Source: Rhodanobacter sp. ANJX3 (GTDB lineage: Bacteria; Pseudomonadota; Gammaproteobacteria; Xanthomonadales; Rhodanobacteraceae). Taken from it: DNA of 64,000 nucleotides. Positions 14,203 to 52,124 of this stretch are shown one piece after another (position 1 is the stretch's first letter; each line of letters opens with the position of its first letter). The translations under genes and the position numbers were made by a program. The stretch is taken from NCBI RefSeq assembly GCF_014200755.1, contig NZ_JACHCM010000003.1, positions 558,001 to 622,000 on the forward strand. Direction: 5' to 3'. Below the pieces are notes generated by a model, which was not told the DNA's origin, made no database searches, and worked only from the letters and a program-made list of their open reading frames with translations.

Positions 14203-16469
14203 ATTCGTCACGGCCATGGCTCCGGCCGATCGTGCTGGCGCTGCTTCTCTCAGCGGTCGCGCCCTCGTTCGCCGCAACGGACCCCAGCTTTCTGCTGACC
14301 GCCAGCTCGAACGATTTCGCTACCTACTTTCCCGGCCAGCTGGCCAACGGCTATTTCTCGACCATGACCGCGCCGCGCGGCACCGAAGGCAACCTCGCCT
14401 ACATGGTCGCCTTGATGGATTACACCAGGGACGACTTTTCGCGGCCCGCCGCCATACCCGGCTGGACCGAGATCGACTACAGCACGGGCACCTCCAGCGC
14501 CGGCCACTTCTGGATGAATCAGGTCGCGCTGGCGCCGTCGGTATTCCAGAACTACCGGCAGGTGCTGAACCTGCACGACGCCACGCTGAGCACGCGCTAT
14601 CGCTATATCGATCACAGCCGTGCCACCGACGTCGCCGTGACGACCTTCGTCAGCCAGGCGTCGCCGCACCTGGCGGCCACGCAGCTGTCGATCACGCCGG
14701 ATTTCGACGGCATCGTCGAACTGTCCTTCGCACTCAATACCTGGGCGCCGTATCAACCGCGCATGCCGCTGGGAAAGCTGACCGGCGAGCAGATGCAGGA
14801 GGCGGTCGCCGCGCACAATATGAAGCTGGAGCCGATCGCGCCGGCCACCTCCGATCGCGCCGCATTCTGGTATCACGGTGATACCCACGTACTGACCAGC
14901 CACGGCGACGCGAAGGATCTGACGCTATCGCTCGATGGCCGCGCCGAACGAGGTCTGCGCATGGCCGAGGCCGCGGCGATCAGCCTGCCGGATCAGCTGA
15001 AGCCGATCGACGGCAAGTTCTACCGGAGCGACTATCGGCTCGCGTTGAACCTGCGCATCCCGGTGCGCAAGGGCCAGACCTATACCTTTACCAAATACGT
15101 CGCCGCCTCGCGCGAGAACTGGGGCGGCGACGCGCGCGACGACCTCGCTCTGGCGCGCACAGCCCGCACGCAGGGATTCGACGCGCTGCTGAGCGCGCAT
15201 CAGGCGGCGTGGCACGCGCTCTGGCAAACGGACGTCCAGATCGACGGCGATTCGAAGGCACAGCAGATCGTGCATTCGGATCTGTACTACCTGCTGTCGA
15301 ACTCCACCGCCGATACCGCGTGGCCGATCGGTGCCTGCGCGATGACGCCCGGTTACGCCGGTCATGCGTTCTGGGACAGCGATTCGTGGGTGTTCCCCGC
15401 GCTGTTGCTGCTGCATCCGTCGCGCGCCAAGTCGCTGGTGATGTTCCGCGACCGCACACTGCCCGCTGCGCAGCAGCGCGCGCGCGAACGCGGGCTGCCG
15501 GGTGCGATGTACCCATGGGAAGCCGATCCCGAGAACGGCACCGAACAGACGCCGTATTTCGCGCGCGTGCTGGGCGAGCGCGAGATCCACGTCAATGCCG
15601 ATATCGCCATCGCGCAGTGGCAGTACTACCTGGCCAGCGGTGACAAGATTTGGCTCAAACAGCATGGCTGGCCGGTGATCCGCGAGATCGCGAAATTCTG
15701 GACCGGCCGCGCAACCTTCAATGCCAAGAAACAGCGCTACGAAATCCTGCACGTCACCTCGGTCGACGAGGACTACAACGACGTGCCGAACGACACCTTC
15801 ACCAACGCCTCGGCCGCGAAAGCGCTGAACATCGCCACCGCGGCGGCGGCGATCGTCGGCGAGACACCCGACCCGCGCTGGTCGGATATCGCCGCACGCA
15901 TGCTGATTCCGTTCTCCGAAAAAGACGGCCATCACCTCGACTTCGACGAAAGCGTGCCGCACGACATGGATTCGTGGGGCGGCAGCTCACTGCCGATGCT
16001 GTCGTATCCCTCACTCGACTTTCCGATGACGCAGGCCCTGCGCCAACGCGATTACGACTTTGCGCTGAGTCCGATCACCGGCTCGCATCGCGACCCCAAC
16101 AGCATGGGTCTGGCGCCCACCTCGATCGCCGCCGCCACACTGGGCGATGCAGTCGGGGCGAGCGAGTGGTTTCGGCGAAACATCACGGCCGACGTGATCA
16201 AGCCGCCATTCAACGTGCGCACCGAAACCGCGACCAACAACACCGGCTATTTCCTGACCGCCAGCGCAGGGCTGCTGCAGAACATGGTGTATGGCTTCAC
16301 CGGCCTGCGCATCGAAGAAGCGGGCGTGGTCGAAGCGTATCCGCCGGTGCTGCCAGCCTCATGGAAATCGCTGACGCTGAAGCACGTTCGCTTTCGCGGC
16401 ATCGCCTACGACATCACCATCGATCGCGATGCCGCCGGCAAGACGCGGCTGACCCGCACCGCCCACTGA
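14199..16469 (+). CDS. Secreted GH65-family glycoside hydrolase, second paralogue
   Basis: Start chosen at ATG 14199, which overlaps the previous stop as ATGA, has GGCAGGAA upstream, and gives a good signal peptide (LRPIVLALLLSAVAPSFA). The 756-residue product is colinear with the paralogue at 10013 through GHAFWDSDSWVFPALLLL, IHVNADIAIAQWQYY and the active-site segment HVTSVDEDYNDVPNDTFTN. The candidate catalytic glutamate is E524, the same number as in the paralogue. The change from SPDEAY to SVDEDY beside the catalytic residue suggests altered specificity after duplication. It is presumably periplasmic or surface-exposed. Confidence 0.85.
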   Translation: MNSSRPWLRPIVLALLLSAVAPSFAATDPSFLLTASSNDFATYFPGQLANGYFSTMTAPRGTEGNLAYMVALMDYTRDDFSRPAAIPGWTEIDYSTGTSSAGHFWMNQVALAPSVFQNYRQVLNLHDATLSTRYRYIDHSRATDVAVTTFVSQASPHLAATQLSITPDFDGIVELSFALNTWAPYQPRMPLGKLTGEQMQEAVAAHNMKLEPIAPATSDRAAFWYHGDTHVLTSHGDAKDLTLSLDGRAERGLRMAEAAAISLPDQLKPIDGKFYRSDYRLALNLRIPVRKGQTYTFTKYVAASRENWGGDARDDLALARTARTQGFDALLSAHQAAWHALWQTDVQIDGDSKAQQIVHSDLYYLLSNSTADTAWPIGACAMTPGYAGHAFWDSDSWVFPALLLLHPSRAKSLVMFRDRTLPAAQQRARERGLPGAMYPWEADPENGTEQTPYFARVLGEREIHVNADIAIAQWQYYLASGDKIWLKQHGWPVIREIAKFWTGRATFNAKKQRYEILHVTSVDEDYNDVPNDTFTNASAAKALNIATAAAAIVGETPDPRWSDIAARMLIPFSEKDGHHLDFDESVPHDMDSWGGSSLPMLSYPSLDFPMTQALRQRDYDFALSPITGSHRDPNSMGLAPTSIAAATLGDAVGASEWFRRNITADVIKPPFNVRTETATNNTGYFLTASAGLLQNMVYGFTGLRIEEAGVVEAYPPVLPASWKSLTLKHVRFRGIAYDITIDRDAAGKTRLTRTAH

Positions 16470-33403: not shown

Positions 33404-34213
33404 TTGACGATGCCTCTCCATCGCCGCGCTTGTGCGCTTGGACTGACACTGAGCCTGGGCGCTACGGCGGTTGCCGCAAGCGCCAGCCCTACCGGATCCG
33501 ATGCGATCCGCTACGTCGAAGGCAAGGCTTACGCCTCGGACGGCCACGTGATGTACACCGAATCGCACTGGATCTATGACGATGGCGACGACCCGTCGCG
33601 GCTGGTGCTGTATCGCTGTCCCGACGGCAAACCGTTCGCCCGCAAGACCCTGCACGACGACGGCGGCGCGCAGGCGCCCGATTTCACGCTGGACGACGGC
33701 CGAACCGGCTACCGGGAGGGCGTTCGCAACGCCGGCGGCAAGCGCGAGGTATTCGTACGCGACAGCACAAATGCCAGGGAGCGCACGGCCACGCTGGATA
33801 CCTCGCCCATGCCGGTGATCGACGCCGGCTTCGATGCCTATATCCGCGTGCATTGGGACACGCTGAGCAAGGACGGCGACACGTTGCCGTTTCTGGTGCC
33901 CAGCCGCCTTGGCACGCTCAGCTTTCGGGTCAAGCGCCAGGCCGATGCCCAGATCGAAGGCCGCGCCGCGCGCCAGTACCGTTTGAGCCTGGACAGCATG
34001 ATCGGCTTCGCCCTGCCCCATCTGGACGTAGCCTACGACGCCAAGACGCATGAACTGCTGAGCTTCGACGGTATTGCCAATATCCGCAGCAGCAGCGGCA
34101 AAAACGTCAGCGCCAAAATCCTGTTCGATCCGTCGAAAAACAAGGACGTTGCCCGTGCCGATCTGGATGCGGCCACGAAGGAGCCGCTGGGCGGGCAGTG
34201 CAAGATTCCGTAA
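33404..34213 (+). CDS. Exported protein of unknown function
   Basis: 269 residues, not recognised. It has a signal peptide (LGLTLSLGATAVAASA) and a mature part rich in beta-strand-like segments with VLYRCPDGKPFARKTL, DTLPFLVPSRLGTLSFRVKR and a C-terminal GGQCKIP. There are two candidate starts: TTG 33404 lies 7 nt after GGGAG (33392-33396), while ATG 33410 lies 13 nt after it, so the TTG is spatially better. It may be a periplasmic protein. There is no operon partner; a repeat element follows within 25 bp. Confidence 0.75.
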   Translation: MTMPLHRRACALGLTLSLGATAVAASASPTGSDAIRYVEGKAYASDGHVMYTESHWIYDDGDDPSRLVLYRCPDGKPFARKTLHDDGGAQAPDFTLDDGRTGYREGVRNAGGKREVFVRDSTNARERTATLDTSPMPVIDAGFDAYIRVHWDTLSKDGDTLPFLVPSRLGTLSFRVKRQADAQIEGRAARQYRLSLDSMIGFALPHLDVAYDAKTHELLSFDGIANIRSSSGKNVSAKILFDPSKNKDVARADLDAATKEPLGGQCKIP

Positions 34214-34235
34214 GCTAAGCGCAGGAACGTTGAGT

Positions 34236-34401
34236 GTAGGTTGGGCTGAGCGCAAGCGACTCAAGCGACTGTGGAGGCATGGATGCCGGAACGAACATTC
34301 GCGTAGCGAATGGACCAAAGGGCGGCTCGCTGGAGCGAGCCGTATGCCCAACGTCAGCTGGTAATCCATGTTGGGCTTCGCTCGCGCTCAGCCCAACCTA
34401 C
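34236..34401. repeat. Composite REP-like element, copy 1
   Basis: 166 bp bounded by inverted ends GTAGGTTGGGCTGAGCGC and its exact complement. The right end is a complete REP palindrome beginning (on the minus strand) with the tetranucleotide GTAG, typical of RAYT-mobilised REPs. The core holds three hairpins: GGCA/TGCC near 34276, ATTCGC-GTA-GCGAAT (34297-34311) and CGGCTCGC-TGGA-GCGAGCCG (34323-34342). It also carries a duplicated CAAGCGACT. It is clearly related to the copy at 44121. Confidence 0.85.
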
Positions 34402-34419
34402 CTCCTACATTTCGCCACT

Positions 34420-35316
34420 TCAGCTCCAGCTATCGTCGCCGCTGTCGTCAAACGAGCCGCCGTCGCTGTTGTCGTCCCAGCCGTCGTCGTTATTTCCCAT
34501 ATCGATCGGCTGGTTGCGCAGCTGGTCAAAGGCCTGATCCTGCGGATCGGGCGCGTTCGGCGCGAAGTTGTTGCCGGACTGGAAATCGCCACGCTGCTCT
34601 TCTTCGCGACGCTCATGATTTTCGTACGCGTTGACCGCAGCCGCACCCAGCACGCCGCCGGCGAGCCCGCCGAGAATGCTGCCGCCGATCCCCGATCCGC
34701 CCTGCGGACCCGGCTGATAGCCCGGCGGCGGGTACGGCCCGTTGCCGTACGGGTTCTGCGGGCCGGGCGCGCCATAACCCTGCTGGCCATAGCCCTGATT
34801 GCCGTAACCGGAGTTATTCATCGCGCCCTGCTGGCGGCGACGGAACCAGCCGAACAGCAGCACCACGATCACCGCGCCGATCACCCACGGCCAGATGCTG
34901 CCGCTGGAGCGCGGCTGGGCTGCCACAGGCTGCTCGACCGCCGCGTAAGGCACTTCGCGTGCGCTCGCTGCCGGACGGCGTACGCCGGTCGACGGCGCCA
35001 GGGCCTGATTCAACTCGGCCTCGAAACGGTTGAACTTTGCAGGGTCGGTAAAGCTGATCTTCGGATCGATCGTCTTGGCCTGACTGGCCTCCTTCTGCGC
35101 GTCGCCGATATTGCCCTCATGGGCGAGCACCTGGGCCAGCAAGTAGTGCGCCTTGGCGCTCTGCGGATGCTCGGTGATCGCCTGGCGCAGCTCCTGCTCG
35201 GCCAGGGTGTAATTGCCCTGCTGGATGGCCGCCTGCACTTCCTTCGGGCCGTCGGCGGCGAAGGCCGATCCGCTGACCAGAAGCACCCATAGTCCCGTCA
35301 ACAAAAGCTTTTTCAC
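34420..35316 (-). CDS. TPR-containing membrane-anchored protein of unknown function
   Basis: 298 residues. The start is GTG 35316 (VKKLLLTGLWVLL), six bases after GGAG; the longer upstream frame is not protein-like. A signal peptide (VLLVSGSAFA) is followed by a TPR-like region (NYTLAEQELRQAITEHPQSAKAHYL), a single membrane helix (IWPWVIGAVIVVLLFGWF), then a low-complexity Gly/Pro/Tyr/Asn/Gln tail, a Gly-rich hydrophobic stretch (GGSILGGLAGGVLGAAA) and an acidic Asp/Ser/Trp-rich C-terminus. Possibly an envelope scaffold. No function can be assigned from sequence. Confidence 0.78.
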   Translation of the reverse strand: MKKLLLTGLWVLLVSGSAFAADGPKEVQAAIQQGNYTLAEQELRQAITEHPQSAKAHYLLAQVLAHEGNIGDAQKEASQAKTIDPKISFTDPAKFNRFEAELNQALAPSTGVRRPAASAREVPYAAVEQPVAAQPRSSGSIWPWVIGAVIVVLLFGWFRRRQQGAMNNSGYGNQGYGQQGYGAPGPQNPYGNGPYPPPGYQPGPQGGSGIGGSILGGLAGGVLGAAAVNAYENHERREEEQRGDFQSGNNFAPNAPDPQDQAFDQLRNQPIDMGNNDDGWDDNSDGGSFDDSGDDSWS

Positions 35317-35670
35317 GCGTTTCTCCGATGGCACGACCTGGCGGTCGACTGGTGATAAATCGGGCCGATTGGGCCGGAGCGCAAGGCTAGCATTGCGCCG
35401 TGGTTTCGCCGTTAAGGCAACGAGACGTCCTGCGCCGCGGTTCACACTCGCGTTAACCTTCGAAGCATCGACCGCCAGTGGGCGCAGAGACCTATCTGCG
35501 ACACGAAGATATCGACGTACCCCGCACTGCAGCCACCAGGCGGGTGCCGACATCGCGGCATATAAAAGTTGCCCCAGGCGGGCGGCAGCAAGGCGGCACA
35601 GCGCTCTGGCAATGCACCGCCGGCTGGCTTACATTCTTGCCCTAAGCCATAAACATCCCGAGGACCAGCC
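35317..35670. other. Intergenic region with no recognised gene
   Basis: 354 bp between the divergent TPR-protein gene and a 59-codon frame. No hairpin-plus-T terminator, clear operator or RNA gene was seen. It presumably contains the two divergent promoters. Confidence 0.5.
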
Positions 35671-35850
35671 ATGGGCGCGACCGGACCCGTCAATCCCGAC
35701 TTCGTCAACACCCCGCCCGACGTCAGCCACTCGCCCACGGGCATGCACCGTCCGCTGCATGGCGAATTCGATAGCGAAGAAACCGCCTATCAGGATGAAG
35801 TCCAGCACGACACCGCGCTACGCGAATCCGTGCTGCGCACGCCGCGATAG
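35671..35850 (+). CDS. Small hypothetical protein (59 aa)
   Basis: A 59-codon frame from ATG 35671 to TAG, preceded by GAGGA at the right distance. The product is hydrophilic (MGATGPVNPDFVNTPP... ending in RESVLRTPR), with no cysteine and no hydrophobic stretch. It could be a small cytoplasmic stress or regulatory protein. The support is the ribosome binding site and the protein-like composition. The long overlapping frame that crosses this region from 35213 is considered a shadow. Confidence 0.55.
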   Translation: MGATGPVNPDFVNTPPDVSHSPTGMHRPLHGEFDSEETAYQDEVQHDTALRESVLRTPR

Positions 35851-35917
35851 GCTCGGCAACCTGTAGCTCTGTGCTCGCCGCTTGCAAGGCCGCTACACGC
35901 ACTCTGCGTGACGATGG

Positions 35918-36658
35918 CTAAGCGTCGATAGGCAGCACGGCGATCGGACGCTTGGTCACAGGCGACATGATCGCGGTGTAGGTCGTGTCCTCGCGCTGGA
36001 GCGGCAGCGCCAGCAGCGTCTGCGAAGGTTCCGACGCCTGCAAACGACGAAGATAAGCCCGTTGGGAATCCGTGGCGTTCTTGAGCGATGCCAAGGGCCT
36101 GGCATGTTTCATCACCGCATCGATTGCCTGATCGTAAGTCACATAATATTGGGGCAGCCGATCGATATCCTTGCCGGTCTGCATGACCTTGAGTGCAAAA
36201 TCGCCGAGCGATACGTCTTTTGGCGTGAGCGCGCCCACCAGCACGGGACCGTTCAACGAACGCTTGCGGAACTCGGGCCTGTCGCCCTTGGCCAGATCCG
36301 CATCGCTGAGCTGCTGGGCCGAGACCATCACCAGTCTATCCACTTCGGCGACGATGAATACCGGCCGTGCATCGGTAATCACGTGCACGCCGTAGCTCAA
36401 GGCGGCGATCTGCAGTATGCCGATGACGGTGAGATCCAGCCGCAACAGTTTGCGCGCCTTATGACGATTCACCACCAGCAAGGTCAAGAGTGGCCCGATG
36501 CAGATGTCGACGCCCAGCAGCAGCAAGATCAGCCGGTTCGCCCCCGCCGCGGAAAAATACGGCGAAGGGAACCAGATGAAGTAGAGCCAGGCCAGCATCA
36601 ACACCGTCAACACGATGCTTATCGACAGATGAACGGCAGCGGCTTTCCAGCGATTCAT
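35918..36658 (-). CDS. TfpX/TfpZ-like type IV pilin accessory protein
   Basis: 246 residues from ATG 36658 (MNRWKAAAVHLSISIVLTVL); an upstream extension to 36754 is open but lacks family similarity. The N-terminus has two or three membrane helices with the family pattern WLYFIWFPSPYFSAAGANRLILLLLGVDICIGPLLTLLVV, then a helix around GILQIAALSYGVHVI. The C-terminal half is soluble (RPVFIVAEVDRLVMV). TfpX/TfpZ proteins assist assembly or modification of particular type IV pilins and usually sit next to the pilin gene. No pilin gene is adjacent here. Assignment is by recalled pattern, fairly confident. Confidence 0.75.
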   Translation of the reverse strand: MNRWKAAAVHLSISIVLTVLMLAWLYFIWFPSPYFSAAGANRLILLLLGVDICIGPLLTLLVVNRHKARKLLRLDLTVIGILQIAALSYGVHVITDARPVFIVAEVDRLVMVSAQQLSDADLAKGDRPEFRKRSLNGPVLVGALTPKDVSLGDFALKVMQTGKDIDRLPQYYVTYDQAIDAVMKHARPLASLKNATDSQRAYLRRLQASEPSQTLLALPLQREDTTYTAIMSPVTKRPIAVLPIDA

Positions 36659-36752
36659 AGGGCGAAAAGGACTCGAAGCGGGCGCACGAAATATACGACG
36701 CCTGATCAAGAATTGCTTGCACCTCATCCAGCTGAGCAGGCGGTTTGCCGAC

Positions 36753-36783
36753 AAAAAACGCCGGCGCGAAGCCGGCGTTTTCT
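36753..36783 (-). terminator. Terminator of the galactose operon
   Basis: A stem CGCCGGC-GCGAA-GCCGGCG is flanked by A6 and T4. Read on the minus strand it ends in a run of six T, and it lies about 30 bp after the permease stop codon. It marks the 3' end of the galactose cluster. Confidence 0.85.
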
Positions 36784-36810
36784 AACCGTTGGTGTAGGGC
36801 GGATAGAAGA

Positions 36811-38196
36811 TTACCGCCCAATCGCACGCAACGGCTTGCCGGCCATCAGCCTGGTTTCGATCTGTTCCAGCGTCACGCCTTTGGTCTCAGGCACGAGCCA
36901 AAAGGTGAGGCCGATGAAGATCACGTTGAGCGCGGCGTAGAGCCAGAACGTGTTGGCATTGCCGATGCCGTTGAGCAGGCTGAGGAAGGTCAGGCCGACG
37001 ATGTAGTTGCCGACCCAGTTGGTGAAAGTGGACGCGCCGATGCCAAAGTCGCGGCCTTTGAGCGGCTGCACTTCCGAGCATAGCGTCCAGATCAGCGGAC
37101 CCGCCGACATCGCGAAGCCGACAATAAAGAGCAGCAACATGCCCACGGTAAAGTACTGCTCGCCTTTGCCGTTGATGCCCATATGCATCATCGCGCCAAC
37201 CACGCCCAAGCCAAGCGCCATCACCACAAAACCCGCGTAGAGCATCGGCTTGCGCCCGAGACGATCGACAAAGCCGATCGCAATGAAAGTAGCCAGCACG
37301 TTGGTGAGACCGACGATGGCGGTAAACCACAGCTGCGCGTGGGTGTCGTAGCCCATCGTCTGGAAGATCTTCGGCGCGTAGTACATCACCACGTTCATGC
37401 CGGTGAACTGCTGCATCAGCTGCAGCAGTACGCCCAAGCCGACCGAGCGACGAAAATTCTTGTTCTGCTGAAACAGATGCCAGCCGAGCTGTGGCTGCTT
37501 CAACTGTTCTTCGATGTCGGCGATCTCGTGCTCGACGATACCGTCGTCACCGCGCAGACGCTTGAGCACCTTGATCGCGTCGGGTTTGCGACCGCGCATC
37601 ATCAGCCAACGCGGGCTATCGGGCAGAAAGAACACGCCGAACAGAAACAGCACGCCTGGGATGGCAATGATGCCAAGCATCCAGCGCCAAGCGCCTGCGG
37701 CGCTGAAAGCCAGATCGGAAAGGAACGCCACCAGAATACCGGTGGTGATCATCAGCTGATAAAGCGAAATCATCGAACCGCGAATTTTCTCCGGCGCCAC
37801 TTCCGCCAGATACAGCGGCGCCGTAAAGGTTGCTATACCGATCGCCAGGCCGAGCACGATGCGCGCCAGAATCAAGGTGATCGGCGACCAGGCGAACGCG
37901 CACAGCAGCGAGCCGAGGACGAACAACACCGCGCCGGCGATAAGCGATTTTTTTCGGCCAAGTGCCGAGGACATCCACGCGGCACCGAGCGCGCCGATGG
38001 CCGCACCGAGCATCATGGCGCTGACGATCCACTCCACGGTGTGGTCGTCGATATTGAAATCTTTCTGGATGAACTGGGTGGCGCCGGAAATCACGCCGAT
38101 ATCCAGACCGAACATCAGGCCGGCCAGCGCCGCCAGGATGCAGGTAAAAATAACCGTCGTTCGGGCGACGGCTTGCGGTGACTCAGAAGTGTTCAT
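36811..38196 (-). CDS. Sugar:proton symporter of the SP family (GalP/XylE-like)
   Basis: 461 residues from ATG 38196 (MNTSESPQAVARTTV), with AGGA upstream. Twelve membrane helices and the sugar-porter signatures are present: GLMFGLDIGVISGA in helix 1, the GRKK loop between helices 2 and 3, PLYLAEVAPEKIRGSM, the PDSPRWLM motif before the central loop, QQFTGMNVVMYYAPKIF in helix 7, and VPETKGVTLEQIE at the C-terminal end. As the last gene of the dgo-type cluster it is inferred to import D-galactose. Arabinose or glucose are possible alternatives. Confidence 0.88.
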   Translation of the reverse strand: MNTSESPQAVARTTVIFTCILAALAGLMFGLDIGVISGATQFIQKDFNIDDHTVEWIVSAMMLGAAIGALGAAWMSSALGRKKSLIAGAVLFVLGSLLCAFAWSPITLILARIVLGLAIGIATFTAPLYLAEVAPEKIRGSMISLYQLMITTGILVAFLSDLAFSAAGAWRWMLGIIAIPGVLFLFGVFFLPDSPRWLMMRGRKPDAIKVLKRLRGDDGIVEHEIADIEEQLKQPQLGWHLFQQNKNFRRSVGLGVLLQLMQQFTGMNVVMYYAPKIFQTMGYDTHAQLWFTAIVGLTNVLATFIAIGFVDRLGRKPMLYAGFVVMALGLGVVGAMMHMGINGKGEQYFTVGMLLLFIVGFAMSAGPLIWTLCSEVQPLKGRDFGIGASTFTNWVGNYIVGLTFLSLLNGIGNANTFWLYAALNVIFIGLTFWLVPETKGVTLEQIETRLMAGKPLRAIGR

Positions 38197-38266
38197 GGTT
38201 TTATTCCTGAAGAGGAAAGCGGATGGGGACGCCGGATCGGATGACCGCAAAGCGCATCATCCGGCG

Positions 38267-39163
38267 TCATCCGTCACGATTCGGTGTACCGGCAAAGCGC
38301 GACTCGCGCAGGCCGGTCATGCCGACGTCGACGGTGAAGAGGTAGCCGGCCTGAGGATCGGTGGCGAGTTGTTCGGCCGTGAGGTCTTCGCTGGCGCTGG
38401 TGACGAATAGCGTGTCGAGTTTTGCGCCGCCAAACGCCGGCTTGGTCGTCTGCGCGGCCGGCAGCGCGATGATGCGATCCTCGCTGCCGTCGGCCAGGTA
38501 ACGCACCACCCGGCCCATGCCCCATTGCGCGTTCCACAGCGCGCCCTCGGCATCGACCGTGGAGCCGTCGGGCACGCCGCTCATACCGGTGAGGTCGACG
38601 AACAGGCGTGGCTCGCCCAGCGTGTCGCCGTAATCGCAACAGTAGATCTTGCGCGTCGGCGAATCGCAGAAATACATGCGATCGCCGGCCGGGCTGAAGG
38701 CGATGCTGTTGCTGATCGCCACGTCGGGCAGCGGCAGCCGCTGCAGGCTCAGATCGCGGTTGAGCCGATAGAAGCCGCCCACGGCCTGCTTGTCGCCCTG
38801 CGCCGGCTCGTGCAGCGTGCCGAACACGAAGCGACCCTGCCGATCGCAGACGCCGTCGTTGCTGCGCGTCGGCAGTTCTTTTTCCACCGCGTGCAGCTCA
38901 ATCAGTTCACGCGTGTCGGGATGGAAGAAAGCCAGCCGCGAGGCCAGCGCCAGCAGCAGCCAGCCATCGGCTTCGCACAACGCGAACGAGGCGAGCCGCT
39001 CGGGCATGTCCCAGTGCAGCACGCGGCCATCGTCAGGATGCAAACGCCACAGCTTGCGCCCGCCGATATCGGTCCACCACAGCGTCTGCAGGCGGTCGTC
39101 CCACAGCACGCCTTCGCCCAGCTCGTGCGGCACGGCGTGTGCAACGGTCGGCGCTGCGCTCAT
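38267..39163 (-). CDS. SMP-30/gluconolactonase-type sugar lactonase
   Basis: 298 residues from ATG 39163, overlapping the dehydrogenase stop as ATGA. The six-bladed beta-propeller lactonase pattern is clear: HELGEGVLWDDRLQTLWWTDI with the metal-binding Glu, RSNDGVCDRQGRFVFGTL, SNSIAFSPAGDRMYFCDS, and VPDGSTVDAEGALWNAQWG. These supply the divalent-metal ligands. It would hydrolyse the galactono-lactone formed by the neighbouring dehydrogenase to D-galactonate. Close relatives act on arabino- or gluconolactone, so sugar specificity is taken from the operon. Confidence 0.87.
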   Translation of the reverse strand: MSAAPTVAHAVPHELGEGVLWDDRLQTLWWTDIGGRKLWRLHPDDGRVLHWDMPERLASFALCEADGWLLLALASRLAFFHPDTRELIELHAVEKELPTRSNDGVCDRQGRFVFGTLHEPAQGDKQAVGGFYRLNRDLSLQRLPLPDVAISNSIAFSPAGDRMYFCDSPTRKIYCCDYGDTLGEPRLFVDLTGMSGVPDGSTVDAEGALWNAQWGMGRVVRYLADGSEDRIIALPAAQTTKPAFGGAKLDTLFVTSASEDLTAEQLATDPQAGYLFTVDVGMTGLRESRFAGTPNRDG

Positions 39164-39927
39164 ACCCAACCTCCATCGACAATGAAATCCTGGCCGGTGC
39201 ACATACGGCTGTCGTCGGCCGCGAGAAACAGCGCCGCGCGCGCCACATCGGAAGGCTCCAGATGTCCGGACAGGCACTGGCCGCGCTTGATCGAGGCTTC
39301 GCCCTCGGCATCGAGCCACAGCGTGCGCTGCTTCTCGGTGATAACCCAGCCGGGCACCAGGCAGTTGATGCGGATGTGCTGCGCGCCGAGCTCACGCGCC
39401 ATGCCGTTGACGAAACCGCGCACCGCGGCCTTGGCCATCGCATACAGCGGGAAGGCGCCATTTTTCCTGATCCAGCTGATGGAACCCATGCAGATGATCG
39501 AGCCACCGCCCAGCCGTTGCATATCCGCCATCACCGCCTTGGTGACAAAGACCTGGTGGCGCAGATTGACGGCAATATTGCGCTCGAAGAACGCCTCATC
39601 CACGTCGTCCAGGGCATGGCGGCCGTCATTCGCCGCATTGTTGATGAGCACCGAGAACGGACCCACCGCGCTACGCAAGGTGTCGATGCTCCGTGCCAGC
39701 GCATCGAGGTCGGTGATATCGCCATGCTGGTACGTCGGCGTGTGCGCCACGTCTGCGAGCGACTCGATCAGCGCGGCTGCCGATGCATCGTCGATATCGA
39801 TGAAGCCGACGCGCGCACCCTGCCGCGCGAAGTGTTCTACCAACGAGGCGCCGATGCCGCTGGCGCCGCCGGTAATGAGCACGCTGCGATCGACAAGGCT
39901 GGGGTAATTGGCAAAACGTGCCGTCAT
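39160..39927 (-). CDS. SDR-family sugar 1-dehydrogenase (probable D-galactose dehydrogenase)
   Basis: 255 residues. Classical SDR features: the cofactor loop LITGGASGIGASL, the acidic residue in GFIDIDD that favours NAD, NNAAN, the catalytic S149 in MGSISW, and Y162/K166 in YAMAK, with IRINCLVPGWV following. It would oxidise D-galactose (or L-arabinose) at C1 to the lactone. It couples to the lactonase through a four-base overlap and follows dgoD after 46 bp. The role depends on the complete galactonate pathway next to it. Confidence 0.82.
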   Translation of the reverse strand: MTARFANYPSLVDRSVLITGGASGIGASLVEHFARQGARVGFIDIDDASAAALIESLADVAHTPTYQHGDITDLDALARSIDTLRSAVGPFSVLINNAANDGRHALDDVDEAFFERNIAVNLRHQVFVTKAVMADMQRLGGGSIICMGSISWIRKNGAFPLYAMAKAAVRGFVNGMARELGAQHIRINCLVPGWVITEKQRTLWLDAEGEASIKRGQCLSGHLEPSDVARAALFLAADDSRMCTGQDFIVDGGWV

Positions 39928-39973
39928 GATGGGTTTTCCATAAAACGAAGAGGGCGTAAGGCGCAGGCGATGC

Positions 39974-41122
39974 TTACCACTCCGCGACGCTACCGTCGGC
40001 GTGCCGCCAGATCGGGTTGCGCCAGCGATGGCCGACCGCCGCGCGCTCGATCACATAGGCCTCGTTGACCTCGATACCGAGGCCGGGGCCACCGGGAATG
40101 GTGACGTAGCCGTTCTCGTAGGCGAACACGCTGCGATCGGCCACGTAGTCGAGCAGATCGTTGGCGGCGTTGTAGTGGATGCCGAGGCTCTGTTCTTGGA
40201 TAAAGGCGTTGTGACAGACGGCGTCGAGCTGCAGGTTCGCCGCCAGCGCGATCGGGCCGAGCGGACAATGCAACGCCAGCGCCACGTCGTAGGCTTCGGC
40301 CATCGCGGCGATCTTGCGCGTTTCGGTGATGCCGCCGGCATGCGAGGGGTCGGGCTGGATGATGTCGACGCCACCGCGATCCAGCACGCGCTTGAAATCC
40401 CAGCGCGAATACAGCCGTTCGCCGAGCGCGATCGGCGCTGGCGAAATAGCGGCCAGCTCGGGGATGCATTCGAGGTATTCCGACAGCACCGGCTCCTCGA
40501 TAAACATCAGCTTGTACGGCGCCAGCTCGCGCATGAGCACTTTGGCCATCGGCTTGTGCACGCGGCCGTGGAAGTCGACGCCCAGGCCGATGTTCGGGCC
40601 CACCGCATCGCGCACCGCCTGGACGTTGGCCAGCACCTTGTCGACCTTGTCGTGCGAGTCGATGTACTGCATTTCCTCGGTGCCATTCATCTTGACCGCG
40701 GTGAACCCCCGGCCTACCGCATCACTGGCCGCGCGCGCGGTGTCGGCCGGACGATCACCGCCGATCCACGAATACACGCGGATGCGATCGCGTACCGGAC
40801 CACCCAGCAAGGTATGCACCGGCACACCGAGATGCTTGCCCTTGATGTCCCACAGTGCCTGGTCGATGCCGGCGATCGCGCTCATCAGAATCGGACCGCC
40901 GCGATAAAAACCGCCGCGATACATCACGCTCCACAGATCCTCGATGCGGCCGGGGTCCTTGCCGATCAGGTAATCGGACAGCTCTTCCACGGCGGCGGCG
41001 ACCGTTTGCGCGCGCCCTTCCACCACCGGCTCGCCCCAGCCGACGATGCCACTGTCCGTTTCGATTTTCAGAAACAGCCAGCGCGGCGGCACGAGATACG
41101 TTTTCAGGCCGGTGATTTTCAT
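39974..41122 (-). CDS. dgoD: D-galactonate dehydratase
   Basis: 382 residues from ATG 41122, overlapping the dgoA stop as ATGA. An enolase-superfamily (mandelate racemase) protein: capping domain [20 protein letters not shown], then the barrel with GFTAVKMNG, the metal-ligand Asp in [16 protein letters not shown], the GER motif ([13 protein letters not shown]), [13 protein letters not shown], and the catalytic histidine region [14 protein letters not shown]. This matches DgoD, which converts D-galactonate to 2-dehydro-3-deoxygalactonate using magnesium. Confidence 0.9.
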
Positions 41123-41751
41123 GCCGCGTACGTCTTCGCCTCGGCCCATGCCTGGGCGAACTTCTTCGCGCGCTCACCGGTTTCCGCCGCGCTGCGACCG
41201 GGCGCATACAGCGCCGAGCCGATGCCGAAGCCGCGTACGCCGGCGGCCACGTATGGCCCCATGTTTTCCGGCGTGATGCCGCCGACAGGCAGCAAGGCCA
41301 GATCCTTCGGCAGCACCGCACGCCAGGCCTTCACCACGGCGGGGCTGATGTGCTCGGCGGCAAAGATTTTCAGCGCGTCGGCACCGGCATGGATGGCGGC
41401 AAACGCTTCTGTCGGCGTGGCGATACCGGGAATGCAGAACAGGCCGTGACGCTTGGCTTCGGCAATCACCTCCACATCGCCATGCGGCATCACGATGAGC
41501 TGGCCGCCGGCGGCCACCACCTGGCCCACCTGCGCCTTGCTCAAGACGGTGCCTGCACCGACCAGCGCGCGATGGCCAAAGGCCTCAGCCATCAATCCGA
41601 TGCTGCGCATCGGGTCGGGGGAATTGAGCGGCACCTCGAGGATGCGAAAGCCCGCATCGAGCACGGCATTGCCGACGTCGACAGCCTCGTCCGGGGTGAG
41701 GCCGCGCAGTATCGCCACCAGCGGCAGCGGTTCGAACCAGGGATCGATCAT
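41119..41751 (-). CDS. dgoA: 2-dehydro-3-deoxy-6-phosphogalactonate aldolase
   Basis: 210 residues from ATG 41751 ([20 protein letters not shown]), overlapping the dgoK stop as ATGA. A class I aldolase of the KDPG/KDPGal type: AILRG at the N-terminus, [18 protein letters not shown], a [10 protein letters not shown] loop, and the Schiff-base lysine in ALKIFAAEH, with [12 protein letters not shown] at the phosphate site. It cleaves KDPGal to pyruvate and glyceraldehyde 3-phosphate. EVPLNSP rather than EVTLRTP is the galactonate-type variant. Confidence 0.9.
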
Positions 41752-42677
41752 CGGGAAACTCCTGCAGAAGAATGAGACGTAGTGGCTCCCGGCAGACCCG
41801 CCGCGCGTGCCAGCCACCAAAGCCCGGCGGCAGCGGTATCGTCGACGGCGGGAGCCAGCGCGATGGAACATTCGGCCGCGGCCAGGCGGTAGCGCGCGCA
41901 CAGCGCCGCGTCACCGATCAACCACAGCGGCTGGTCGGTGGGCATGCGCCGGTCGGCTCGCATCGAGCGAAACTCCTCTCCGATCAGCAGGCCGGAGAGA
42001 TAGTCGGGAATGGAGGCCGGTTGCAGATCGCCGTCGAGCATGCGTGCGCGCGTGGCAAATAGACGGCTCAAGACACCGGCGGCACCGCTATCGCGCGCCT
42101 GCCGCACGCCGTCGAGAAAAGCGTCGCCGTCATCGAACACGGCTCCGGCATCGACACCGGCCGCAAGAATGGAATGCTGACGCAATAATGCAAACAGCTC
42201 GCCGGTCATCAGCGTGCAGAAATCGACCACCCTGCCCTGGCGCAGCGATACCCACTTGCTGTGGGTGCCGGGCAGCAGCACCGTGGCGTCGGCGGCGGTC
42301 GGATGAAGCGCCATCAGGCCCACAATCTGGGTTTCCTCACCGCGCATCACGTCCGGTCCGCGCGGATTGCGCAGGCCCGGCACAATCGTCAGGCCGTCGG
42401 CGGTCTCCAGCGCGCCGGCCAGGTCGTCCCCGCCGGCGGGCAGATCAAGATAGGCGACCTCGCGCCAACCGCTGCGGCTGCCGATCATGCCGGACGCAAT
42501 GCGGGTCAGCGCCGGCCAGCCCTGGGTTACGGCCTCGAGCGCCCCGGCAAAGCCGCTGTCCGGCAGCTGCCGGATACCCCAGGGCTGTCGGCGCGTCTCC
42601 AAGACCGTGCCGTCGGCATCCATCCGTATGGCGCGCAGGCTCGACGTGCCCCAGTCCAATGCGATCAACCCGCTCAT
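41748..42677 (-). CDS. dgoK: 2-dehydro-3-deoxygalactonate kinase
   Basis: 309 residues. The ASKHA-type DgoK signature is present: LIALDWGTSSLRAIRMD at the N-terminus, ASGMIGSRSGW, MRGEETQIVGL, LLPGTHSKWVSL, and FCTLMTGELFALL. It phosphorylates 2-dehydro-3-deoxygalactonate with ATP to the 6-phosphate used by the aldolase. Both ends overlap neighbours by four bases (dgoR upstream, dgoA downstream), so stoichiometric translation is likely. Confidence 0.92.
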   Translation of the reverse strand: MSGLIALDWGTSSLRAIRMDADGTVLETRRQPWGIRQLPDSGFAGALEAVTQGWPALTRIASGMIGSRSGWREVAYLDLPAGGDDLAGALETADGLTIVPGLRNPRGPDVMRGEETQIVGLMALHPTAADATVLLPGTHSKWVSLRQGRVVDFCTLMTGELFALLRQHSILAAGVDAGAVFDDGDAFLDGVRQARDSGAAGVLSRLFATRARMLDGDLQPASIPDYLSGLLIGEEFRSMRADRRMPTDQPLWLIGDAALCARYRLAAAECSIALAPAVDDTAAAGLWWLARAAGLPGATTSHSSAGVSR

Positions 42678-43381
42678 GCCACTCCTCCCGTGTGTTGAAG
42701 ATGGCGCCGTGAATCGTCGACCATTTTCTGCATGGCCATGCGGGCTTGCGGGGCGCTGCGCTTGCGAATCGCGTCGTAGACGTTGAAATGGTGCGGCAGC
42801 GAATATTTGAAATCGTCCGACGCGCGCGCGGAGAGCAGAAAGAATCCGTGCAGCGCCGTGGCAATGACGTTGAAGAGCGAGCTCATCAGCTCATTATTCG
42901 CCGCGTTCAGTACGGCACTGTGAAATTCTGCGTCGGCTTTGGCCCATGCATCCCGATCGCCAGCCGCCGCCATGGCCTGATAGGCCGCGGCGATGGCGGC
43001 GAGCTGATCACGATCGCGCTTTTTGGCGGCGGCAGCGGCAGCGGCGGGCTCGATGATCTCGCGCATCTCGACCAGCTCGGCAATAAAGGCCTGGGTCGGC
43101 ATGGTGGCGAAGCGCCAGCCCAGCACGTCGGCATCGAGCTGATGCCAGAACCGTCGCTCGCGCACGCGCGCCCCGGTTTTCTGGCGGCTTTCGATCAGGC
43201 CTTTGGCGCCGATCACCTTCATCGCCTCACGCAGCGCGGAACGGCTGACAACGAGCTGGCCGGCCAGCAGCTCCTCGCTCGGCAGCGCGTCACCCGGCGC
43301 CAGCGAACCGCCTACGATCAACCGACCCAACTGGTCGACGACCTGCCGGTGAACGTTGGGTTGCGAAGCATCGGGAGGCAT
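42674..43381 (-). CDS. dgoR: GntR/FadR-family regulator of galactonate catabolism
   Basis: 235 residues from ATG 43381 (MPPDASQPNVHRQVVDQLGR); the open frame to 43555 is not conserved-looking. A winged HTH (LPSEELLAGQLVVSRSALREAMKVIGAKGLI) is followed by an all-helical FCD effector domain (VEMREIIEPAAA, ADAEFHSAVLNAANN, HHFNVYDAI). DgoR of enterics is a galactonate-responsive repressor, and this protein is first in the equivalent operon. The candidate operator TTGTACGACAA lies 20 bp upstream of its start. Confidence 0.87.
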   Translation of the reverse strand: MPPDASQPNVHRQVVDQLGRLIVGGSLAPGDALPSEELLAGQLVVSRSALREAMKVIGAKGLIESRQKTGARVRERRFWHQLDADVLGWRFATMPTQAFIAELVEMREIIEPAAAAAAAKKRDRDQLAAIAAAYQAMAAAGDRDAWAKADAEFHSAVLNAANNELMSSLFNVIATALHGFFLLSARASDDFKYSLPHHFNVYDAIRKRSAPQARMAMQKMVDDSRRHLQHTGGVA

Positions 43382-43400
43382 GGCGCTGGCTCGAATCCAT

Positions 43401-43411
43401 TTGTACGACAA
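43401..43411 (-). promoter_or_regulatory. Candidate GntR/FadR-type operator of the galactose operon
   Basis: TTGTACGACAA fits the FadR-subfamily half-site arrangement TNGT-N3-ACNA and lies just upstream of dgoR. Autoregulation of the operon by DgoR is the simplest reading. Confidence 0.55.
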
Positions 43412-43598
43412 TATAGTTTTAGCACAATCGACAGCCCAAAAGCTTGCGGCCGCGGCCATCGCCGTAAGACAAACCGCTCGGTGCGCGGGATGGATAAGCG
43501 CATCCCGGCCGACCGATGCGTCCACTTTTCCCCGCAGAATATTCCATCGCGGCATCCGCCGCTTGACAGCGAGCCCATGTAGGACGATGATCCAAATA

Positions 43599-43614
43599 AC
43601 AAGTTTAACTTTGT
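43599..43614 (+). promoter_or_regulatory. Candidate MarR operator
   Basis: ACAAGTTTAACTTTGT is an imperfect 16-bp palindrome (12 of 16 positions symmetric) in an AT-rich stretch about 30 bp upstream of the marR start. MarR proteins typically bind such sites overlapping their own promoter. Confidence 0.5.
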
Positions 43615-43642
43615 AGTTTTTCTTTTAATCCGAGGCAAACGC

Positions 43643-44095
43643 ATGGGCGATCCGCAGCACACGGACGAGGCCGCCAGCGCACTGGCGTTGGCCAGCGAGA
43701 TGCGCGTCGTGATCGGCCGCCTGAATCGGCGCCTGCGTGAACTGGCACACTCCAGCGATCTCACCGCCTCGCAAAAATCGGTGCTGCTGCATCTGGAACG
43801 CGAGGGCTCGGCGTCGATCACGGCGCTGGCGAAGGCCGACGGGGTGCGCCCGCAGTCGATGGGCGCCACGGTCTCGTCGCTGCAGGCCGCGGGCCTGATC
43901 GCCAGCGCACCGCATCCCACCGACGGCCGGCAAACGGTTCTTTCGCTGACCGCGAACTGCCGAAAATTGATGAAGGCCGGTCGCGCGGCACGGGAGGACT
44001 GGCTCTGCCGCGCCATCAGCAGCAAGCTCACCGCAAAGGAGCAGGTGAAGCTCGCTCAAGGCATCGCGTTGCTCAAAAGGTTGAGCGAGGAATAG
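43643..44095 (+). CDS. MarR-family transcriptional regulator
   Basis: 150 residues with CGAGG upstream of the ATG. The winged-helix core is visible: LTASQKSVLLHLEREGSASI, ALAKADGVRPQSMGATVSSL as the recognition helix region, then the wing AAGLIASAPHPTDGRQTVLSLT, which has the conserved Asp-x-Arg of MarR wings. Flanking helices would form the dimer. It is upstream of an isochorismatase-like gene, a small membrane protein and an MFS exporter, separated from them by a repeat element, and likely represses them in response to an aromatic or toxic ligand. Confidence 0.87.
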   Translation: MGDPQHTDEAASALALASEMRVVIGRLNRRLRELAHSSDLTASQKSVLLHLEREGSASITALAKADGVRPQSMGATVSSLQAAGLIASAPHPTDGRQTVLSLTANCRKLMKAGRAAREDWLCRAISSKLTAKEQVKLAQGIALLKRLSEE

Positions 44096-44120
44096 GCGCA
44101 CATCTTCGCGCGCCCTATAT

Positions 44121-44270
44121 ATCGGGCTGAGCGCAGCGACTGTGGAGGCAGGATGCCGTAACGAACATTTGCGAAGCGAATGGCCCGAAGGGCGGCGCGC
44201 AGGAGCGCGCCGTATACGCAACGTGTCTGGCCCGGCGGTGTTGGGCATCGCTTTGCTCAGCCCAGCTTAC
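44121..44270. repeat. Composite REP-like element, copy 2
   Basis: 150 bp colinear with the element at 34236. It starts with GGGCTGAGCGCAGCGA and ends with the complement of a REP palindrome (GTTGGGC...GCTCAGCCC). The core hairpins are retained: ATTTGC-GAA-GCGAAT at 44167-44181, and CGGCGCGC-AGGA-GCGCGCCG at 44193-44212. Compared with copy 1, a T-A pair in the second stem is replaced by G-C, so pairing is preserved by a double change. It separates marR from its presumed operon. Confidence 0.82.
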
Positions 44271-44307
44271 GCCACATTCGCCATACAAGACTTCCAAGGA
44301 GAACCCC

Positions 44308-44868
44308 ATGCCGCTCACCACGCTGGACAAGCACACCGCGCTGATCGTGATCGATCTGCAAAAAGGCATCGTCGGCCTGCCCACCGCTCATCCCATCGAC
44401 GACGTGATCGGCAACGCTGGCCGCCTGATCGAGGCCTTCCGCCGGCACGATCTGCCGGTGGTACTGGTCAACGTAACAGGCGTGTCGCCGGGCCGCGTCG
44501 AGCAGTCGCGGCTGCGCGGCGAGTTCCCTGCCGGCTGGGCCGATCTCATTCCGCAACTGAATCCGCAGCCGCAGGATCACCTGGTGACCAAACAGACCCG
44601 CAGCGCATTCACCGGCACGGACCTCGATGCCTACCTCAAGCAGCGGGGCGTCACGCAAGTCGTGGTGGTCGGCGTCGCGACCAGTTCCGGCGTCGAATCG
44701 ACGGCTCGGCATGCCTACGAAAATGGCTTCAACGTCACGCTGGCGGTCGATGCCATGACGGATATGAGCCTCGACCATCACACCCACAGCATCACGCAAA
44801 TTTTCCCGAGAATCGCGGAAACCGGCACCACCCAAGATGTCATCGATCGACTGGAGAGGAGCGCCTGA
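44308..44868 (+). CDS. Isochorismatase-family hydrolase without the catalytic cysteine
   Basis: 186 residues with an excellent AAGGAGA ribosome binding site. The fold signatures are LIVIDLQKGIV with the catalytic Asp, the lysine in LVTKQTRSAF, and VVVGVATSSGVESTARHA. The position that is Cys in nicotinamidase-type members is Gly here, as in true isochorismatases such as EntB and PhzD, which need no nucleophilic cysteine. So an ester or vinyl-ether hydrolase is more likely than an amidase. It forms a tight cluster with the next two genes. Substrate unknown. Confidence 0.82.
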   Translation: MPLTTLDKHTALIVIDLQKGIVGLPTAHPIDDVIGNAGRLIEAFRRHDLPVVLVNVTGVSPGRVEQSRLRGEFPAGWADLIPQLNPQPQDHLVTKQTRSAFTGTDLDAYLKQRGVTQVVVVGVATSSGVESTARHAYENGFNVTLAVDAMTDMSLDHHTHSITQIFPRIAETGTTQDVIDRLERSA

Positions 44869-52027: not shown

Positions 52028-52107
52028 GTAGGTTGGGATGAGCATTAGCGGATCCCAACATCGCGGCGCCAACATGTTGGGGGTCGCGTGCGCTCAGCCC
52101 AACCCAC
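52028..52107. repeat. REP doublet of the same family
   Basis: 80 bp made of two head-to-head palindromes. The left one starts with GTAGGTTGGGATGAGC and folds as TTGGGAT...ATCCCAA. The right one starts, on the minus strand, with GTGGGTTGGGCTGAGC. It lacks the structured core of the longer elements at 34236 and 44121 and so looks like the simple parental form. Confidence 0.75.
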
Positions 52108-52124
52108 GCCATCTGCGACGTTGC

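Follow-up and report, generated by a model that had tools for sequence, protein, structure and literature searches.

Two elements in a 64,000-nucleotide (nt) stretch of the Rhodanobacter sp. ANJX3 genome, here called the window (positions 558,001 to 622,000 of contig NZ_JACHCM010000003.1), consist of repetitive extragenic palindromes (REPs) with a structured core inside. The feature is real and widespread, and it is best filed as an RtT-type cassette living in REPs. We lean, modestly, toward the explanation that a non-autonomous cassette of the RtT type inserted into REPs, probably in the form of single-stranded DNA, and was then disseminated along with them, presumably via RAYT transposases.

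Both elements have the REP-type ends reported in a preliminary description of this DNA, and reading the sequence directly places copy 1 at 34236-34401 and copy 2 at about 44123-44270. Copy 1 is a head-to-head doublet of GTAG-type REPs in which the left REP is interrupted by the core. Its left end is GTAG followed by GTTGGGCTGAGC and its right end is GCTCAGCCCAAC followed by CTAC. In order, it consists of GTAGGTTGGGCTGAGCGCAAGCGA (the left REP up to the insertion point, GTAG GTTGGGCTGAGCGCAAGCGA) and an additional CTCAAGCGA beside the core, together at 34236-34268 on the plus strand; the core, 76 nt (CTGTGG...CCGTA) at 34269-34344 on the plus strand; the remainder of the left REP, TGCCCAACGT, at 34345-34354 on the plus strand; and the right inverted REP, ending in GCCCAACCTAC, at 34370-34401 on the minus strand. 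A pattern for the arms of GTAG REPs matches the left REP at G000:C3:592236 and, on the minus strand, the right REP at G000:C3:592386 (G-numbers denote genomes, G000 being that of the window, here the own genome, and L-numbers denote fetched loci). Copy 2 has the same plan with worn tags; the left GTAG is absent and the right end reads CTTACG. A worn left arm (CGGGCTGAGCGCAGCGA, 44123-44139, plus strand) precedes a core of 75 nt (CTGTGG...CCGTA, 44140-44214, plus strand) and a worn right inverted REP (GTTGGGCATCGC...GCCCAGCTTAC, 44240-44270, minus strand). Copy 1 is thus a GTAG REP doublet in the usual sense, with tag and palindromic stem in two inverted copies, and copy 2 is one in worn form only.

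Two covariance models delimit the core. R1 was built from an alignment (A2) of 89 copies, mostly from Xanthomonadales and including both window copies, and R2 from an alignment (A3) of 29 copies from outside the order. R1 places the cores at 34267-34347 (E 5e-20) and 44138-44217 (E 5.8e-23), and R2 at 34269-34347 and 44139-44217. The plain GTAG REP doublet at 52028-52108 lacks the core, as had been described, both on reading the sequence and by R1, which has no match there at E <= 1. Elsewhere in the window, two regions with long ORFs, at 10081-12269 and 14270-16458 (roughly 4.19 kb from each other), resemble one another at 71-81% in blocks, as tandem paralogues would.

The core is inserted at a defined site. 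Among 172 distinct junctions (from 218 full-length copies of the 233 aligned), the usual site is GA^A[T/C]CC, the caret marking the point of insertion: G at -2 in 87%, A at -1 in 91%, A at +1 in 88%, T or C at +2 in 78%, C at +3 in 73% and C at +4 in 80%. We looked for empty sites by removing the core from 169 junctions, joining 12 nt from each side and searching elsewhere for a match with at most 2 mismatches of 24. Such an empty copy was found for 66 of the 169 joined junctions, compared with 8 when right flanks were dealt anew and none when the join was shifted 6 nt outward. This test, together with core-less REP doublets at both orthologous sites in a congener (G026), bears out the earlier proposal of a REP with the core as its cargo. 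Insertion is precise and has a single polarity, and most of the REP junctions examined show no duplication. The junction set therefore has the properties expected of elements of the IS200/IS605 type, insertion 3' of a short fixed sequence and no target duplication.

The targets are varied. GTAG REPs are interrupted at GCGA^ACCCC or GCGA^TGCC and REPs of the CGTC type at GCGGGA^ATCCAG. Further targets are a Rhodanobacter repeat (TTGTCGA^ACC), a CGGA^ATCCTCATGTAC repeat and short repeats of the GGGACTC type. In partial copies of tRNA-Ser, the core lies in the anticodon loop, and these units of about 161 bp form arrays that adjoin an intact tRNA-Ser(UGA) gene. Tandem arrays of core-bearing partial tRNA-Ser, with a period of 160-165 bp, were seen at L214, L191, L217 and L223. 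We rejected the possibility that the core is a tRNA intron, since the T-arm is missing from the tRNA-Ser units and an intact gene is adjacent to them. At L107 the core is in a T-loop-like piece directly behind an intact tmRNA gene; L118 has a similar piece, and no tmRNA was found in that locus.

Orthologous loci in congeners contain filled and empty alleles. At locus 1, the site of copy 1, six of the seven matched congeners were read (G019 was left out). The core is present in the own genome; in G041 it occupies the same place in the opposite orientation; G026 has a REP doublet without it, and G018, G017, G024 and G023 have no REP there. Recombination between inverted REPs would give the inversion in G041. 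At locus 2, where six of 15 matched congeners were read, the own genome again has the core, G041 has a single REP without it, G026 has a REP doublet without it, and G006, G025, G017 and G024 have no REP. In addition, G041 has a core-bearing element beside a RAYT gene, at a place where G026 has a plain REP. The presence of filled and empty alleles at the same loci indicates that core and REP are separable, and gain of the core at these sites is a simpler reading than loss. The spacer of the core-less doublet of G026 at locus 1 (L303) contains a different palindrome (GATGCATCAATGACG...CGTCATTGATGCAT), perhaps another cargo.

The core folds into four hairpins, H1 to H4 in that order. H1 is an outer stem with a 3x3 purine loop and GGC/GCC, H2 is CATNNGC with a GNA loop, H3 is GCCC-GNA-GGGC, and H4 is a freely varying stem of 5-7 bp. 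Folded as RNA and compared with shuffles, copy 1 has a z of -8.1 and copy 2 a z of -3.5. Both changes on which the preliminary description relied are present: the longest stem reads GGCTCGC/GCGAGCC in copy 1 and GGCGCGC/GCGCGCC in copy 2, a compensatory change from T-A to G-C, and in a second stem CATTCGC becomes CATTTGC opposite GCGAATG, a change from C-G to T.G that retains pairing. Over 24 pairs in 89 sequences, 93.9% of cells are paired, and both sides have changed in 213 cells, compared with 50.6 ± 5.9 in shuffles. For a tree-based null, the same substitutions were placed on random branches of a FastTree tree in 25 simulations, using 152 of the 233 aligned copies (96% redundancy filter, at most 6 gaps). 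Of 2926 column pairs, six pass at E <= 0.05, and these lie without exception within the proposed structure, two in H2 and four in H4, so that these stems covary beyond the null; H1 and H3 have no significantly covarying pair in this test. GNA triloops, which are unusually stable in DNA, are found in H2 of 137 and in H3 of 135 of the 152 copies. An alternative drawing of H1 as a CTGC/GCAG hairpin was replaced by the outer stem that includes columns 7-26 (C-G 64, U-A 19, U-G 5, other 1); the same pair in the tree-based test (6-24) has an E of 1.2 and alone is not significant. The idea of a CsrA/RsmA sponge, with GGA in the loops, was dropped by eye because several copies have lost the motif.

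The claim that pairing is probably selected survives in part: two stems are kept by compensatory change, but template switching could make stems covary without selection. In palindromes, this process copies one arm onto the other, and the covariation would be mutational, so that pairing would not depend on selection for a folded molecule. Stem H4, on which constraint is weakest, shows block-wise variation, and at L266 an inverted copy of it has been incorporated into the right REP. G.T mismatches on the folded strand outnumber A.C mismatches when cells are counted (33 versus 18, p 0.049), but counts by allele types are 15 versus 15, and such equality is the expectation without selection on a folded RNA. 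However, the sequences of H2, H3 and the GNA loops are conserved in distant hosts, which points to constraint of some kind. We consider a mutational origin of the covariation unlikely, and template switching is in any case compatible with the entry and spread of a mobile cassette; the two are not exclusive.

The core is found well beyond the window. By blastn, the own genome has seven copies of the core (11 of 18 matches are to REP arms or fragments), and R1 has 12 matches there at E <= 1e-3, eight of them above 80 bits. Since at most 15 candidates per genome were scored in the R1 scans, copy numbers are lower bounds. In a draw across the order, R1 matched 76 of 299 genomes, in 35 of 85 genera. 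Draws across the class and the phylum gave matches in 55 of 321 and 41 of 349 genomes (E <= 1e-3, the own genome counted in each), the weakest of which possibly include chance ones. Within the genus, blastn at E <= 1e-4 found core copies in 10 of 45 genomes. A pattern scan of named genomes, not confined to the genus, found at least 116 stretches. The matches listed name Rhodanobacter, Dyella, Tahibacter, Rudaea, Luteimonas, Chiayiivirga and other Xanthomonadales (Lysobacterales), and also one Microbulbifer and metagenome-assembled genomes named only Proteobacteria or Gammaproteobacteria. The copy 1 core had no blastn match in phages and plasmids, and a pattern scan of viral contigs found no core. 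A2 comprises 89 of 107 copies, which were kept from 131 distinct copies by skipping the odd copies of L145, L188, L038 and L028 and dropping others that were more than 95.5% alike; the 18 omitted, many with indels, are L101, L110, L117:6398, L129, L135, L144, L157, L158, L173, L174, L179, L180, L185, L191, L198, L027, L032 and L041. A few A2 rows come from metagenome-assembled genomes named to phylum or class only, and the core of L120 is that of L232, from outside the order.

REPs of this type are more numerous than cores. REP arms match the own genome at 32 places with at most one mismatch (14 exactly), compared with 6 for a reversed control pattern, and therefore most REPs there are without a core. 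In G251 and G270 there are many near-identical composites, REP arms included. A GTAG REP at L263 (G000:C4:348016-348073) seems to contain only H3 and H4, as a deletion derivative would, and at L268 (G270:C19) the core fills the loop of a lone REP, which ends in ACCCCAACCTAC and has no partner to form a doublet. Composites appear to move as units, with only rare changes of context by the core: the nearest core from another locus was in the same context for 116.9 of 142 copies, compared with 23.1 when labels were shuffled (44 of the 218 copies, of unclassified context, were left out).

A RAYT gene with matching flanking REPs, for which a search had been proposed, is present in congeners but not in the own genome. 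Counting G041 itself, 13 of the 45 genomes of the genus match its 177-aa RAYT. On both sides of this gene and of its relatives with 73-77% identity in G001, G026, G032 and G043 lie REPs of the same type; the copy in G025 (72%) has a stop and worn REPs. Three Y1 genes were found in the own genome, one of them decayed, and by eye no such REPs were seen within about 1.5 kb on either side of them. The Y1 transposase at L044 (G000:C16:1056-1304) is IS200-like and decayed, with five in-frame stops.

The preliminary description knew of no name for this element, and here it can be corrected: the core is a distant relative of RtT RNA (RF00391), as indicated by reciprocal models and by RtT matches on intermediates. 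R1 finds the RtT units of E. coli MG1655 (E 1.4e-8, 1.5e-8 and 6.3e-7), and R2 also finds MG1655 RtT. In turn, the two best matches of R2 in the window are copy 2 (47.0 bits, E 5.5e-13) and copy 1 (24.8 bits, E 4.6e-6), followed by a third at 14.7 bits (E 0.0067). Among the intermediates, the Rfam RtT model identifies L247 at 111.5 bits, and L242 and L233 score below its cut-off of 45, at 42.8 and 39.0 bits. R1 also finds a site 82 nt past a 5S gene of E. coli ER1709 (E 1.4e-9), and a sequence like this 5S spacer is present in 3914 of 5426 E. coli genomes. We take it to be the stretch between the rrnB T1 and T2 terminators that is used in many vectors. In the class and phylum draws, a tRNA or tmRNA is in the fetched stretch at 22 of 27 loci. 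Of 39 elements tested, almost all of them from beyond the order, 21 have an empty copy of the junction at the same locus; 18 of these empty copies are in T-loops, two are at the 5S rRNA end and one (L256) is unclear. Excluding L256, the inserts are 68-92 nt.

The similarity to RtT could be convergence of GC-rich hairpins, the core of Xanthomonadales being a separate invention. The Rfam RtT model has no match in window positions 34000-44600, nor on L225, L222, L214, L259 or L299, at E <= 10; that is, it does not reach the tRNA-type Xanthomonadales loci (L225, L222, L214, L259), nor does it reach the E. coli 5S spacer. No Rfam family matched the core in window positions 34000-44600 (E <= 10), at ten loci (gathering score) or at L202 (E <= 5). 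R2 is not fully independent because the A3 rows were found with R1. Calibration of the models was short, and their E-values are rough. (A3 omits L232, L235, L238, L244, L249, L250, L256, which is from the same order, L258, L279, L280, L282, L286 and L297, and the five short loci L240, L241, L243, L248 and L251.) Nevertheless, the models match reciprocally, the four hairpins have the same order, and the same GA^A site is used in T-loops, anticodon loops and REPs. We regard convergence as very improbable. By reciprocal models, then, the window core is homologous to RF00391, with the same order of hairpins. By the Rfam gathering cut-off, which the window copies do not reach, and by place, it falls outside that family: RF00391 copies follow a tRNA gene and lie within a duplicate of that gene's 3' end, and the window copies lie in REPs, although one own-genome copy (C5:42874, L259) adjoins a tRNA. 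The cores of L225, L259 and L247 score 25.0-25.6 bits against AaHKsRNA22, a small RNA of Aggregatibacter (RF02902, cut-off 39.8), perhaps another relative. The literature that we searched had nothing linking RtT to REPs or to insertion.

The core might instead be an RtT-like functional RNA, produced together with stable RNA genes, downstream of them or as the 3' end of other transcripts, with its stems kept for a role in RNA and REPs merely spreading it. The MG1655 annotation gives RtT as an RNA processed from the tyrT transcript, and RtT-family RNAs have been reported as detected in Actinobacillus pleuropneumoniae (PMC4986893). The frequent proximity to tRNA or tmRNA genes in the class and phylum draws and the excess of G.T over A.C by cells would also fit an RNA role. 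But that excess vanishes by allele types, the core at locus 1 is inverted in G041 relative to the own genome, and REP-borne copies occur in many unrelated contexts. An RNA role as the main explanation is possible but, to us, doubtful.

The comparisons described above establish the insertion site, its polarity, the separability of core and REP, the covariation and the family membership; for the route of entry we can only propose a model. In each window element, a cassette of about 76 nt interrupts the left REP of a GTAG doublet after GCGA; it would have entered while the target was single-stranded and folded. A putative enzyme would join the cassette 3' of a short fixed sequence, as HUH/Y1 enzymes such as those of IS200/IS605 elements and the RAYTs do. 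From then on, a cassette within a GTAG REP would travel with the doublet whenever the RAYT belonging to that class of REP mobilized it. The stems would be maintained because the folded strand is what is recognized.

Several observations weigh against this model. For 103 of the 169 junctions, there is no close empty copy in the DNA examined, and copy 1 has an extra 9 nt (CTCAAGCGA) adjoining the core. The longer tandem duplications at tRNA sites are not explained by simple insertion, and loss of the core, instead of gain, is possible at the orthologous sites. We found no enzyme for the core; nothing in the own genome matches the G041 RAYT group at E <= 1e-8, and among the RAYT loci L073-L084 a core is nearby only at the G041 place, with none in L074-L084. 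The context labels that suggest movement as units also track host kinship. To these must be added the annotation of RtT as a processed RNA; the excess of G.T over A.C is weak.

We suspect, at about even confidence, that RtT, the E. coli 5S spacer, the inserts in anticodon loops and T-loops of partial tRNA and tmRNA copies and the REP cores form one superfamily of tiny, gene-less, site-specific mobile elements of about 70-90 nt, inserted into folded hairpins with a single polarity, usually at GA^A[T/C]CC, by a putative single-strand mechanism. RtT, so far a puzzle of one tRNA operon, would become a single member of a dispersed family that shares one insertion rule, and that rule offers an account, open to testing, of how RtT and the E. 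coli 5S spacer arose. The cassette would also add a second layer of cargo, within REPs that are presumably cargo of RAYT already. With empty, filled and inverted alleles of one locus occurring naturally, the mechanism can be tested directly.

The element shares features with several known systems. RtT RNA of the E. coli tyrT operon shares with the core the order of its four hairpins, a start that follows a TTCGA-like site and an end ahead of ATCC; in contrast to the window copies, which are in REPs, it lies in repeats behind tRNA-Tyr genes. IS200/IS605 elements insert 3' of a short fixed sequence and have hairpins near both ends. The cassette resembles them in these respects and in the lack of target duplication at REP junctions, but it has no linked transposase, uses a different target and is far smaller. 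Some insertion sequences are described as using REPs as insertion sites (PMC1525189). These carry genes, whereas the cassette is gene-less and uses tRNA-like targets too. With GTAG REPs, REP doublets and REPtrons, the element shares the GTAG tag, the palindromic stem and the head-to-head doublet, and, as in REPtrons, matching REPs lie on both sides of RAYT genes, here in congeners. The core also occurs in CGTC-type REPs, for which one published study reports no dedicated transposase (PMC3733652). Finally, whereas the loop of a plain REP is short, that of the window REP is filled by about 76 nt of unrelated structured sequence.

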